DNA of 64,000 nucleotides from Acidobacteriota bacterium (GTDB lineage: Bacteria; Acidobacteriota; Terriglobia; Terriglobales; Acidobacteriaceae). The stretch is from positions 62,001-126,000 of the forward strand of contig JAJYVF010000017.1 in assembly GCA_021792135.1 (NCBI GenBank). Reading direction: 5' to 3'. The notes beneath the pieces were generated by a model. The model was not told where the DNA came from, did not search any database, and saw only the letters and a list, made by a program, of their open reading frames with translations. This document shows, in pieces, positions 10,560-17,454 of the stretch; the stretch's first letter is position 1; every line of letters starts with the position of its first letter. The position numbers and the translations under genes were made by a program.

Positions 10560-10870
10560 TGAATCCCCTCGCCGGCTGTCTGCTCGTTTCCTCCCTGCTC
10601 TTCTCTGTCGGCCTTGCCGGCGCCCTCACCCGGCGCAGCGCCATCCTGGTGCTGGCCGGAATTGAGCTCATGCTGAATGCGGCCAACCTCAACTTCATCG
10701 CCTTCTGGCGCTTCGGCCCGCATCCTGAGTTCCTCACCGGCTTCGTCTTTGTTATCTTCTCCATCGCTGTCGCGGCGGCCGAAGCGGCCGTTGGCCTGGC
10801 GCTGATCGTTGCTATTTACCGCCACGCCCAGACCTCCGACGTGAGCGAGATCACGGAGATGAAGGGATGA
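10559..10870 (+). CDS. nuoK: NADH-quinone oxidoreductase subunit K
   Basis: Small three-helix membrane subunit, 103 aa, MrpC-like. The two buried glutamates of the family can be placed in TM2 (LAGIELMLNAANLNF) and TM3 (AVAAAEAAVGLAL), both needed for proton transfer in studied homologues. It overlaps nuoJ by 1 base and nuoL by 4 bases. Length is normal. Confidence 0.95.
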   Translation: MNPLAGCLLVSSLLFSVGLAGALTRRSAILVLAGIELMLNAANLNFIAFWRFGPHPEFLTGFVFVIFSIAVAAAEAAVGLALIVAIYRHAQTSDVSEITEMKG

Positions 10871-12915
10871 GCTGGATCGTTCGCAGTCTCTGGCTGATTC
10901 CGGTCCTGCCTATGCTCGCCGCCGGCGTGAGCGCGCTGCTGAAGCGCGAGCAGCGCCGCCTGTCTGCCTCGCTGGCCATTGGATCGATGGGAATCTCGTT
11001 TGTGCTGGCCCTGTCGGCCTTCGCGCAGGCGCTCGCAGAGCCCGCGCGCCAGGTCGTGAACTTCGGCTGGATGCAGTTCGGCAATCAGTGGGTCAGCCTC
11101 GGCTGGCTTCTCGATCCTCTGGCTGCCGTCATGCTCGTCATGGTGACGCTCGTGGGGCTGCTGATCTTCATCTACAGCCTCGGCTACATGGCCCACGATG
11201 ATAACTTCACCCGCTTCTTCTGCTTCCTCTCGCTCTTTGCCGGGGCCATGCTGGGCGTGGTCATCGCCAACAGCCTGCTGCTCCTCTTCATGTGCTGGGA
11301 AGTGGTGGGTCTTACCTCGTATCTCCTGATTGGCTTCTGGTTCCAGCGCCCCGCGGCCGCCGCGGCAGCGAAGAAAGCCTTCGTCACCACCCGTATCGGC
11401 GACCTCGGCCTCCTGATCGGCATGGTCTGGCTCTACGCGCAGAGCGGGACCCTGCTCTTCTACGACCACGGCGCGGGCTGTCTCGAGCAGAGCGCTCTAA
11501 CCACGATGGCCGCGCACGTCACCATCGCCGGCATGGCCGTTTCGACCGCGATTGGACTGCTGATCTTCTGCGGCGCCGCCGGCAAATCCGGCCAGGTTCC
11601 TCTGCACGTCTGGCTGCCCGACGCCATGGAGGGCCCAACCCCGGTCAGCGCTCTGATCCACGCGGCCACCATGGTCGCCGCGGGCGTCTACCTGGTCGCG
11701 CGTGTGTACCCGCTGATGACCCACAGCGCGCTGGCGGTGGTCGCGTGGGTCGGCGCCATCACCGCGTTTTTCGCGGCCTGCATTGCCGTGGCGCAGAACG
11801 ACATCAAGCGCATCCTGGCCTACTCCACCGTCTCGCAGCTCGGCTACATGATGTTGGGTCTGGGCGTCGGCAGCGTCGCCGTGGGCATGTTCCACCTCAT
11901 CACCCATGCCTTCTTCAAGGCGCTGCTCTTCCTCGGCGCGGGATCTGTGATCCACGGCTGCAGCGACGAGCAGGACATCCGCAACATGGGCGGCCTGCGG
12001 CGCTTCATGCCCGTCACCTTCCTCACCTATGCCGCCGGCATGCTGGCCCTCTGTGGCTTCCCGCTCTTTGCGGGCTTCTGGAGCAAGGACGAGATTCTCC
12101 ACGCGGCCCACGGCTGGGGCCTCTCACGCGGGCCGTTCTACCTTGGGGCCATCGGAGCGCTGCTGACCGCGTTCTACATGACGCGCCAGGTCTTCTACGT
12201 CTTCTTTGGACCACGCCGCACAACGGAGACCCGTTCCGAACCTGTGGGTTCGCACCATGGGCCTGTCCACGCAGCTGCCGAACCGCACGAGAGCCCGGGC
12301 GTCATGACCGGGCCGCTCGTGGTCCTGGCCCTCTTCGCCACCCTGCTGGGGTTTGTCGGCACGCCAGCCTGGCCGTGGTTCCAGTCCTTCCTCTCGGGGA
12401 CACCGAACTCCTTCGACCTTGCCCGCTTCAACGAGCCAGGTCTGATCCCGCTCATGCTCTCCTCCTCGGTGCTGGTCTTTGCCGGGCTGCTGCTGGGCTG
12501 GTGGCTCTATGGCCGTGAACCCATCCTTCGCGGCACCGATCCCGATGCTCTGCAACGCCTGCAGCCTGGCATTTTCCATGCCCTCGCGAACCGGCTCTAC
12601 GTCGACGAGTTCTTTGGCCTGACCGTCATTGCCCTCACCCGCTTTGCTTCGGCGTTTTCCTCCTGGCTGGACCGCTGGATCTGGGGCGGCGCGGTGCGCC
12701 TGGTCTCCTTCCTGACAGTCGGCCTTGGCTGGCTCGATGCCGGTGTGGACCGCTACCTCGTGAACGGTGGCTTCGATGCGGGCTGCCGCGATCTGGCGCG
12801 CGGGGGGCGGCTCTTTTCCAGCCTGCAGAGCGGGCGCGTGCAGAATTACCTGCGGGTCATTGCCGCCGCCCTCGTGGTGCTCGCGGTGTTGCTGCTCTGG
12901 GGGCGCAGAGGATGA
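10867..12915 (+). CDS. nuoL: NADH-quinone oxidoreductase subunit L, extended lateral helix
   Basis: Distal antiporter-like proton pump (682 aa). Key residues are present: Glu145 in MCWEVVGLTSYLLIGFW (TM5) and Lys240 in GAAGKSGQVPLHVWLP (TM7). The protein is about 70 aa longer than E. coli NuoL (613). Between TM15 (ends near residue 549, GWWLYGRE) and the last helix (starts near 660, NYLRVIAAALVV) there are about 115 residues, against roughly 80 in ordinary NuoL. The extra part (SSWLDRWIWGG, then LGWLDAGVDRYL) lies in the amphipathic lateral helix HL. This lengthening is the structural mark of complexes with a fourth pump, and two nuoM genes follow. Confidence 0.95.
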   Translation: MSWIVRSLWLIPVLPMLAAGVSALLKREQRRLSASLAIGSMGISFVLALSAFAQALAEPARQVVNFGWMQFGNQWVSLGWLLDPLAAVMLVMVTLVGLLIFIYSLGYMAHDDNFTRFFCFLSLFAGAMLGVVIANSLLLLFMCWEVVGLTSYLLIGFWFQRPAAAAAAKKAFVTTRIGDLGLLIGMVWLYAQSGTLLFYDHGAGCLEQSALTTMAAHVTIAGMAVSTAIGLLIFCGAAGKSGQVPLHVWLPDAMEGPTPVSALIHAATMVAAGVYLVARVYPLMTHSALAVVAWVGAITAFFAACIAVAQNDIKRILAYSTVSQLGYMMLGLGVGSVAVGMFHLITHAFFKALLFLGAGSVIHGCSDEQDIRNMGGLRRFMPVTFLTYAAGMLALCGFPLFAGFWSKDEILHAAHGWGLSRGPFYLGAIGALLTAFYMTRQVFYVFFGPRRTTETRSEPVGSHHGPVHAAAEPHESPGVMTGPLVVLALFATLLGFVGTPAWPWFQSFLSGTPNSFDLARFNEPGLIPLMLSSSVLVFAGLLLGWWLYGREPILRGTDPDALQRLQPGIFHALANRLYVDEFFGLTVIALTRFASAFSSWLDRWIWGGAVRLVSFLTVGLGWLDAGVDRYLVNGGFDAGCRDLARGGRLFSSLQSGRVQNYLRVIAAALVVLAVLLLWGRRG

Positions 12916-15985: not shown

Positions 15986-17454
15986 ACGCGGTGAGCTATC
16001 TCGAACTCCTCCGCCTCACCCTGCCGGAGATCGCCCTGACCGTGGCGGCTCTGCTCCTGCTCACGCTCGACCTTACCCTCCTGCGCCCCTCACCGCTGGC
16101 GCGCCGCTTCTCGGTCGCCGCCTTCATCGCCTGCGCCGGATGCCTGGCTGCCATTGCTCTGGTCGCCGCCTCCTCCGCCACCGCCAGCCTCCCTGACGGC
16201 ATGTTCGTCCTCACGCCGCTCACGCACGTCGTGCACATCGTCCTGCTCGTGCTGGCGCTTCTCACCGTTCTGCTTTCCACGGCCACCCGCTTTACCGATC
16301 ACGTCGGCGAATACATCGCGCTCATCCTCTTCGCCACCGTGGCCATGATGTTCCTGATCGCCACCGAGAATCTGCTGCTGATCTTCGTCGCTCTGGAATT
16401 TCTCTCGCTCTCGCTCTACATCCTGACCGGATTCGACAAGCACAGCCGCCAGTCCGCGGAGGGCGCCCTCAAATACTTCCTCTTCGGCGGCATGTCGGCG
16501 GGATTCCTGCTCTTCGGCATGAGCCTGCTTTACGGCCTCTCCGGCTCCATCGAACTGCCCCGCATCGCCGCCGCCGTCAGCGGCCCATCGCTCGATCCCC
16601 TGCTGCTGATCGCCATCGTGATGGTCGCGATCGGCTTCGGATTCAAAGTGGCGGCTGCGCCCTTCCACCTCTGGGCGCCCGATGCCTATCAGGGCGCGCC
16701 CACTGTGAGCGCAGGCTTCATCGCCTCCAGTTCCAAGGTCGCCAGCTTCTTCATCTTCGCCCAGGTCGTGACGCTGGCGCTTCTGCCCGCGGCAGGAACC
16801 GCCGGCTATCGCGGCTACACGCCGGGATGGGTCCCGGTCATCGCCATCATCGCAGCCCTCTCCATGGTGCTGGGCAATCTCGCGGCCATTGCGCAAACCA
16901 GCCTGCGCCGCCTGCTCGCCTATTCAGCCATCGGCCATGCAGGCTACATGCTGATCGCCTTCGCAGCTCATACGCCGGAAAGCCTCAGCGCGCTGCTTTA
17001 TTACGTCATCACCTACGCCCTCGCATCTCTGGGCGCATTCGGCGTGCTGGGCGCGCTCGAAGCCGAAGGCGTTGACCGCATCCGCGACCTCGCCGGCCTC
17101 AATCGCCGCGCGCCAGGCATGGCGTTCTGTCTGCTCATTTTCCTGCTCTCCCTTGCCGGAATTCCGCCTCTGTCCGGCTTCTTCGGCAAGTTCTTTGTCT
17201 TTGCGGCCGCATTGCACGCGGAGCCGCATCTGAGCCTGCTCTGGCTGGTGCTGCTGGCCGTGGCCATGAGCGCCGTTTCGCTCTACTACTATCTGGGCGT
17301 GCTGAAGCAGGTCTACGTCACCGAAGGGCCGGCCGATGCGCCGCCGCTCCGGATCGCCCCCCCCACCCGCATCGGAGTCTGGCTGCTCGCCGCTCTGGTT
17401 GTCATCCTGGGCTGCGCGCCCAGCCTGCTGCTGAACTGGTTCAGCATCCACTGA
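15982..17454 (+). CDS. nuoN: NADH-quinone oxidoreductase subunit N
   Basis: Third canonical antiporter-like subunit (490 aa, about 14 helices), last gene of the operon. TM5 glutamate in ALEFLSLSLYILTGF and TM7 lysine in GFGFKVAAAPFHLWAPDAY are present. The start at 15982 is preferred to the ATG at 15976: it forms the ATGA overlap seen throughout the operon, and AAGGGGG then lies 7 bases upstream instead of 1. The operon ends 55 bases before the convergent priA; no clear intrinsic terminator was found there. Confidence 0.94.
   Translation: MNAVSYLELLRLTLPEIALTVAALLLLTLDLTLLRPSPLARRFSVAAFIACAGCLAAIALVAASSATASLPDGMFVLTPLTHVVHIVLLVLALLTVLLSTATRFTDHVGEYIALILFATVAMMFLIATENLLLIFVALEFLSLSLYILTGFDKHSRQSAEGALKYFLFGGMSAGFLLFGMSLLYGLSGSIELPRIAAAVSGPSLDPLLLIAIVMVAIGFGFKVAAAPFHLWAPDAYQGAPTVSAGFIASSSKVASFFIFAQVVTLALLPAAGTAGYRGYTPGWVPVIAIIAALSMVLGNLAAIAQTSLRRLLAYSAIGHAGYMLIAFAAHTPESLSALLYYVITYALASLGAFGVLGALEAEGVDRIRDLAGLNRRAPGMAFCLLIFLLSLAGIPPLSGFFGKFFVFAAALHAEPHLSLLWLVLLAVAMSAVSLYYYLGVLKQVYVTEGPADAPPLRIAPPTRIGVWLLAALVVILGCAPSLLLNWFSIH

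Follow-up and report, generated by a model that had tools for sequence, protein, structure and literature searches.

Complex I with a second NuoM subunit, the 2M complex I, is reportedly described for the first time by Chadwick et al. (2018). Its hallmark is given as an insertion of about 26 residues in the lateral helix (HL) of NuoL (PMC9040806). Complexes of this kind are reported for Nitrospira, where a role of ferredoxin is proposed with the complex running in reverse (PMC6606698), and for a Chloroflexi metagenome-assembled genome (MAG) from Lost City (PMC7117926). A second, incomplete nuo cluster of Chloroflexus comprises 12 genes with two adjacent nuoM (PMC8004040, PMC3150298). For Acidobacterium capsulatum 161 an "unusual complex I" with duplicated nuo-M is described as transcribed, with nuoABC transcripts significantly higher at diminishing oxygen, so that the 2M type is already known from this species (PMC11636273). 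The window analysed below is a stretch of 64,000 nucleotides from an Acidobacteriota soil bacterium of the Acidobacteriaceae (assembly GCA_021792135.1, contig JAJYVF010000017.1, positions 62,001 to 126,000, forward strand) and forms part of a 5.1-Mb genome (G000, contig C8). Acidobacterium capsulatum belongs to the same family. Positions 5118-17454 of the window hold a 12-gene complex I operon in the order A B C D I H J K L M1 M2 N, which combines two features of 2M complex I, a second NuoM beside NuoM and a lengthened NuoL lateral helix, with an M2 devoid of the lysine of transmembrane helix (TM) 7. The genes are:

5118-5498, + strand, nuoA (126 aa; Pfam PF00507, 103.3 bits)
5600-6232, + strand, nuoB
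6229-6825, + strand, nuoC (Pfam PF00329; NCBIfam TIGR01961 107 bits, below the cut-off of 122)
6822-7958, + strand, nuoD
8031-8693, + strand, nuoI (Fer4 domains, Ala-rich C-terminal tail; best NCBIfam match TIGR01971 NuoI, 78.5 bits, below the cut-off of 113)
8690-9910, + strand, nuoH
10014-10559, + strand, nuoJ
10559-10870, + strand, nuoK
10867-12915, + strand, nuoL (682 aa, lengthened lateral helix; NF005141 635.5 bits, cut-off 556)
12912-14453, + strand, nuoM1 or M (513 aa, complete key residues; TIGR01972 434.2 bits, cut-off 263.8)
14453-15985, + strand, nuoM2 or M' (ATG start, 510 aa; TIGR01972 422.6 bits, cut-off 263.8)
15982-17454, + strand, nuoN (ATG start, 490 aa, key residues retained; TIGR01770 388.5 bits, cut-off 332.6)

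Slightly longer starts of M2 and N were used in the NCBIfam scan, and refined starts in the Pfam scan. The preliminary description had placed the unit at 10867-17454. Its L-M-M'-N part stands, but the unit is wider and begins with nuoA at 5118. The adjacency of these four genes with overlaps of one to four bases is borne out (L/M1 4 bases, ATGA; M1/M2 1 base, TGATG; M2/N 4 bases, ATGA; all on the + strand). The gene content then given was right, but the account left out the absence of nuoE, nuoF and nuoG and an adjoining oxidoreductase gene treated below. According to the Pfam/NCBIfam reading of its genes, the cluster 5118-17454 contains none of nuoE, nuoF and nuoG, which lie inside the cluster in a canonical 14-subunit NADH complex I. 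Green complex I is described with MrpD-like subunits in place of NuoL (PMC9040806); the present operon encodes a true NuoL instead of two MrpD-like subunits.

The HL span was measured in a global alignment from the conserved Asp at the HL start to the motif preceding the last helix. It amounts to 78 residues in the NuoL of the window, 54 in the second NuoL of the same genome (contig C69) and 49 in E. coli. The helix is therefore 24-29 residues longer than canonical, in keeping with the insertion of about 26 residues, and a span of 78 recurs in 69 of 70 NuoL rows of relatives, the exception being the N-terminal piece of a split open reading frame (ORF) at L058. With its two adjacent, divergent nuoM genes, the operon, as read from its sequence, encodes a 2M complex I, and the NuoL hallmark supports the earlier proposal to that effect. 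A phmmer alignment to 6hum_F ends at residue 621 and could be taken for a NuoL lacking the insertion, a reading rejected because the global alignment shows the longer span. AlphaFold draws the helix unbroken:

12601-12825, + strand, NuoL residues 579-653, one unbroken helix (HL), block confidence (pLDDT) 49-77

With pLDDT values in this range the prediction lends weak support. In E. coli, six to seven residues inserted in the lateral helix between L and M reduce pumping (PMC3274701). Among the structure matches listed (60 of 87, 50 of 636 and 60 of 69), none is named as a 2M complex.

The 80 loci used for comparison were collected by similarity to M2 and thus contain M2 by construction. M1 stands beside it in 76 (two as short pieces), so the arrangement is not due to chance. 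Three of the other four loci end too close to M2 for an M1 call, and the fourth, L070, is considered further below. The first seven rows of M2 relatives, at 81-86% identity, are Acidobacteriaceae or Acidobacterium MAGs, in line with a host from that family. All four antiporter-like subunits very likely assemble, and the gene order suggests the subunit order N-M2-M1-L.

The proton-path residues are intact in M1, with M2 carrying Leu at the TM7 site. As key positions of E. coli NuoM we take E144, K234, K265, H322, H348 and E407. Two of these, E144 and K234, are confirmed in published work (PMC3046159, PMC9271201), where opening of the E144/K234 pair is one step in a proposed mechanism (PMC9271201). 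The two M2 sites that matter most are:

14864-14866, + strand, M2 Lys138, TM5, invariant in M2 (E. coli position 150)
15122-15124, + strand, M2 Leu224, site of the TM7 lysine (E. coli NuoM K234)

Leu occupies position 234 in all 81 M2 sequences, all of which retain the TM5 Glu, the TM8 Lys, both His and the TM12 Glu. A further lysine, six residues past the TM5 Glu, is likewise invariant (81/81); its position holds Met in E. coli NuoM and Ala in the M1 of the window. M1 has Lys at 234 in 75/75 sequences (Lys237 in the window) and retains the other key residues with one gap at 144; NuoN has Lys at the TM7 position in 78 of 79 rows, with one gap. Both M1 and N keep the TM5 Glu, TM7 Lys, TM8 Lys and a Glu or Lys in TM12. 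The Leu is no misalignment, since HMMER alignments of the M2 profile to Paracoccus and E. coli NuoM are ungapped across the TM7 site. More distant 2M operons from a search of Verrucomicrobiota (L128-L139) show the same pattern, with Leu at 234 and Lys at 150 in 12/12 M2 and Lys at 234 in all ten M1 pieces read. The next-best Acidobacteriota matches (L102-L122) have Lys at 234 in 21/21 M proteins.

The loss of the TM7 lysine speaks against M2 as an ordinary extra pump, and the best-surviving alternative makes M2 a spacer or relay that does not pump, with only L, M1, N and the E-channel pumping and the stoichiometry remaining at four. Mutation of the conserved M_K234 in E. coli leads to loss of function (PMC3046159), which favours such a relay together with the Leu found in every M2 and in the single-M relatives examined. 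The other key residues of M2 are nevertheless invariant, as is its new TM5 lysine, and the single-M relatives have retained the Lys-less form as their sole M between L and N. We regard the relay as a possibility of some weight, if a doubtful one. Preferred here is a four-antiporter arm in which M2 would gate otherwise, through the new TM5 Lys or through the TM12 Lys of NuoN partnering the M2 Glu, or would mainly relay the signal. Current models take the Glu/Lys ion pair, of which the TM7 lysine is one half, as the gate of each antiporter-like subunit. For complex I at large this role of the pair is disputed, as is pumping by every one of these subunits (PMC9271201).

Outside the family, the closest M proteins of the phylum lie in single-M operons. 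Four of these (L123-L126, read over about 18-20 kb) contain no E/F/G that could be found and, together with L140 from the Verrucomicrobiota search (4.4 kb around M examined), have a NuoL span of 52 or 53 and a NuoM in which Leu stands at 234 and Met or Thr at 150. A wider search of 396 Acidobacteriota genomes (E<=1e-140, about 1.5 kb examined on each side of M) gives 13 with a single Lys-less M, including the four behind L123-L126; every one of them combines Leu at 234 and Met at 150 with a NuoL span of 52. The single-M complexes (L123-L126, L150-L162, L140) thus share the Lys-less NuoM clade with M2, but differ from the window in their one M, their HL span of 52-53 and Met or Thr at the TM5 site.

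With the two trait regions excluded from the alignment, a NuoM tree was calculated from 72 chosen rows (71 different; 10 of the 80 loci, L102-L140, the window, C69 and E. coli). The 29 Leu rows (24 M2 and five single) stand on one side of a 100/100 branch, and the 20 M1 rows form a separate 100/100 group within the 43 Lys rows. In unrooted trees 2M and single-M rows stand together against canonical rows for NuoN (95/85), and only weakly so for NuoL (90/76); in neither do the single-M rows form one clade, and L140 is a long branch of unsure placement. Single-M complexes with a normal HL within the Lys-less clade suggest that M1 may be the added subunit. On a plain reading, M2 would continue an older Lys-less NuoM, with M1, the longer helix and the TM5 Lys coming later; the reverse course, a loss of M1 in the single-M group, is conceivable too. 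The specific course, a Lys-less NuoM lineage that gained a complete M1, placed between NuoL and the ancestral Lys-less subunit, along with the longer HL and a substitute TM5 lysine, is plausible at slightly less than an even chance. If true, the added subunit is M1 instead of M', and the Glu/Lys ion pair is no universal part of the pump. Canonical M with Lys, single Lys-less M and a 2M arm with one complete and one Lys-less M form a natural series, along which H+/2e- values would test the ion-pair gate and the rule of one proton per subunit without designed mutants.

What appears new is that a pump residue has been lost naturally from one of two M subunits and from its single-M relatives. Neither a Lys-less NuoM nor the genomic link with its palindrome described below was found in the literature searched, which excluded the founding paper and most subscription papers; the same literature, founding 2M paper excluded, yielded no Lys-less M in single-M complexes. 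The residue comparison covers 2M genes from outside Chloroflexota and Nitrospirota, and the missing lysine may be peculiar to the lineage of the window or a general 2M trait. The Chloroflexus cluster is alike in layout but belongs to Chloroflexota, and is likened here by description and not by residues.

The 2M operon of the Acidobacteriaceae also occurs in Verrucomicrobiota MAGs and genomes (L046, L055, L064, L127-L139; M2 identity 57-72%), and horizontal transfer is likely since some of these rows interleave in the M2 tree. Five of the 15 same-family rows listed, own genome included, have an M2 of this type (69-100%), and the others have distant NuoM matches or none at the threshold, a pattern of patchy gain or loss. 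In the search for other 2M clades, the plasmid collection yields 292 records, all below 60% identity (15 rows among the matches listed), and viral_contigs no relative.

Upstream of nuoA, divergently transcribed and separated by 246 bp (4872-5117), lies a gene for a pyruvate:ferredoxin (flavodoxin) oxidoreductase (PFOR), with a palindrome in the region between the two:

1239-4871, - strand, PFOR (1210 aa; TIGR02176 1826.9 bits, cut-off 911.35)
5053-5067, + strand, palindrome TGTGA-N6-TCAC in the 246-bp divergent intergenic region

The Pfam domains of the PFOR are POR_N, POR, EKR, PFOR_II and Fer4 (on the longer ORF). At E<=1e-100, this PFOR is present in 38 of the 61 M2-bearing genomes searched (46 of them underlie loci of the set of 80, and 15 are others; G007 and G385, both without PFOR, are probably one genome counted twice, as their M2 places coincide). 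In 21 of the 38 it lies within 15 kb of M2: 17 times upstream and divergent, twice upstream on the same strand and twice downstream. Among these, the linked match of G351 spans 190 residues close to the end of its contig and contains one stop, and G384 has two PFOR pieces, one of them with a stop. Proximity of this degree should seldom arise by chance, since the region within 15 kb covers about 30 kb of several Mb; the 21 linkages are not independent events, the genomes being related.

The palindrome, which we take to resemble sites of the CRP/FNR family, was compared in 37 loci with at least 200 bases upstream of nuoA, 18 divergently linked to PFOR (16 from the genome search above, together with L054 and L080) and 19 not (among them L043 and L053, and also L028 and L039, which have a same-strand PFOR upstream). 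The exact palindrome occurs in 13/18 linked loci and 0/19 others. With up to one mismatch, within 150 bases of nuoA, it occurs in 18/18 linked loci, 5/19 others and 29 of 1850 random 150-mers. As the loci are related, the Fisher p (2e-6) cannot be read as an actual probability. Two further exact copies lie in the window at 9907-9921 and 31025-31039 (0.34 expected in all). A sigma-70 scan of the nuoA-PFOR intergenic region found nothing.

Two electrons passing from ferredoxin (about -0.42 to -0.5 V) to menaquinone (about -0.07 V) release about 0.7-0.85 eV, and from NADH (-0.32 V) about 0.5 eV. Menaquinone is presumably used by the host, as in its family. The energy from ferredoxin would suffice for five protons at 140-170 mV and that from NADH for about three. 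On these figures, pumping five protons with menaquinone as acceptor is reasonable for ferredoxin as donor and not for NADH. The operon is best explained overall, and probably, as encoding a ferredoxin:quinone oxidoreductase with four antiporter-like subunits. It would form a second complex I without NuoE/F/G, its membrane arm ordered N-M2-M1-L and clamped by the lengthened lateral helix of NuoL. The most likely electron source is reduced ferredoxin, which the divergent PFOR would supply here, and the complex would reduce the quinone pool and pump protons. Ferredoxin as the donor is somewhat favoured; a fifth proton per two electrons is a tentative suggestion, to which we give less than an even chance. 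Were ferredoxin the donor, the operon would also illustrate a way for an acidobacterium with a retained PFOR to conserve the energy of pyruvate oxidation. NDH of spinach is described as ferredoxin-fed. NDH of cyanobacteria and chloroplasts lacks E/F/G, like the complex of the window, but has three antiporter-like subunits where the window has four. Ferredoxin and PFOR are words absent from the main text of the paper on A. capsulatum (PMC11636273), unlike the account given here.

Several observations weigh against this explanation. The lack of the TM7 lysine in M2 weakens the fifth proton, and AlphaFold pLDDT falls below 50 at M2 residues 229-241, directly after the altered site. The HL insertion alone is no proof of assembly, given that similar NuoL insertions occur in Ca. 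Manganitrophaceae in two further versions of complex I, for which extra subunits are left open in the source (PMC9040806). On the contig of L070 (verrucomicrobial MAG, 1-3058), M2 and N are present, but neither M1 nor any other nuo gene precedes M2 within 1517 bases; the operon may be split, M2 may occur there without M1, or the assembly may be faulty. No such PFOR is found at the threshold above in 23 of the 61 genomes, so it is not obligatory, and the present genome has three other POR_N-type genes. NADH, lastly, may enter via NuoF of the canonical complex.

Such an entry of electrons from NADH, through NuoE/F/G borrowed from the canonical complex I or from an unlinked module, is unlikely in our view. 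Only two NuoF-like genes exist in the genome, on contigs C69 and C74. The first belongs to a canonical complex I (L010, G000:C69:56500-76000; A, C, D, F, H, J, K, L, M and N matched), whose NuoM has the TM7 lysine and Glu at the position of E. coli His348; its presence makes sharing conceivable, as has been suggested for nuoG in the Chloroflexus aurantiacus cluster with duplicated nuoM (PMC3150298). The two complexes are found together much as in A. capsulatum 161, whose duplicated-nuo-M complex stands beside a whole nuoA-N operon (PMC11636273). No spare NuoF was found, the second NuoF-like gene sitting with [NiFe] hydrogenase subunits, and NADH to menaquinone, by the potentials given above, yields too little for five protons. 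The C74 cluster (L147 5437-10980, G000:C74:26000-42000) contains NuoE/F/G-like genes, judged less likely to be the input module because next to them come genes resembling hydrogenase small and large subunits and one for a maturation protease. Elsewhere in the genome (L011, G000:C71:1-12000), a NuoB-like (39%) and a NuoD-like (28%) gene stand beside two antiporter-like genes (29-30% to NuoL). This is perhaps a third complex-I-like cluster, a membrane-bound hydrogenase or formate hydrogenlyase; a reading of the antiporter genes as Mrp was rejected because the NuoB-like and NuoD-like genes adjoin them.

Still less probable is that the complex runs in reverse, with the proton motive force driving ferredoxin reduction from quinol, as proposed for the 2M complex of Nitrospira (PMC6606698) and for complex I_3 of Ca. 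Manganitrophaceae (PMC9040806). The enzyme linked to the present operon matches the pyruvate:ferredoxin (flavodoxin) oxidoreductase equivalog. In its usual direction, PFOR itself makes reduced ferredoxin.

M1 and M2 share 33.0% identity and have 31.7% and 34.1%, respectively, with E. coli NuoM, so that they lie about as far from each other as either does from E. coli; by these distances they are old paralogues. The pairwise ratio of non-synonymous to synonymous substitutions (dN/dS) against relatives is 0.081-0.173 for M1 and 0.061-0.175 for M2 (five comparisons each), 0.109-0.222 for L (four) and 0.121-0.262 for N (five), rough values because dS is partly above 1. Both M genes are thus, by their sequences, under purifying selection. 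A recent, redundant duplicate with one dead copy, which the preliminary description had named as the case that would speak against it, has a negligible chance given this identity, the separate 100/100 groups in the tree and dN/dS of 0.06-0.18, well under 1, in both copies.

The remainder of the window contains, at 31117-34878, a potassium pump pair of KdpA and a P-type ATPase (KdpB-like by position), at 43196-46213 a three-domain LigD of bacterial end joining (phosphoesterase, ligase, primase-polymerase), and at 52948-54672 a gene for a sigma-54 factor.

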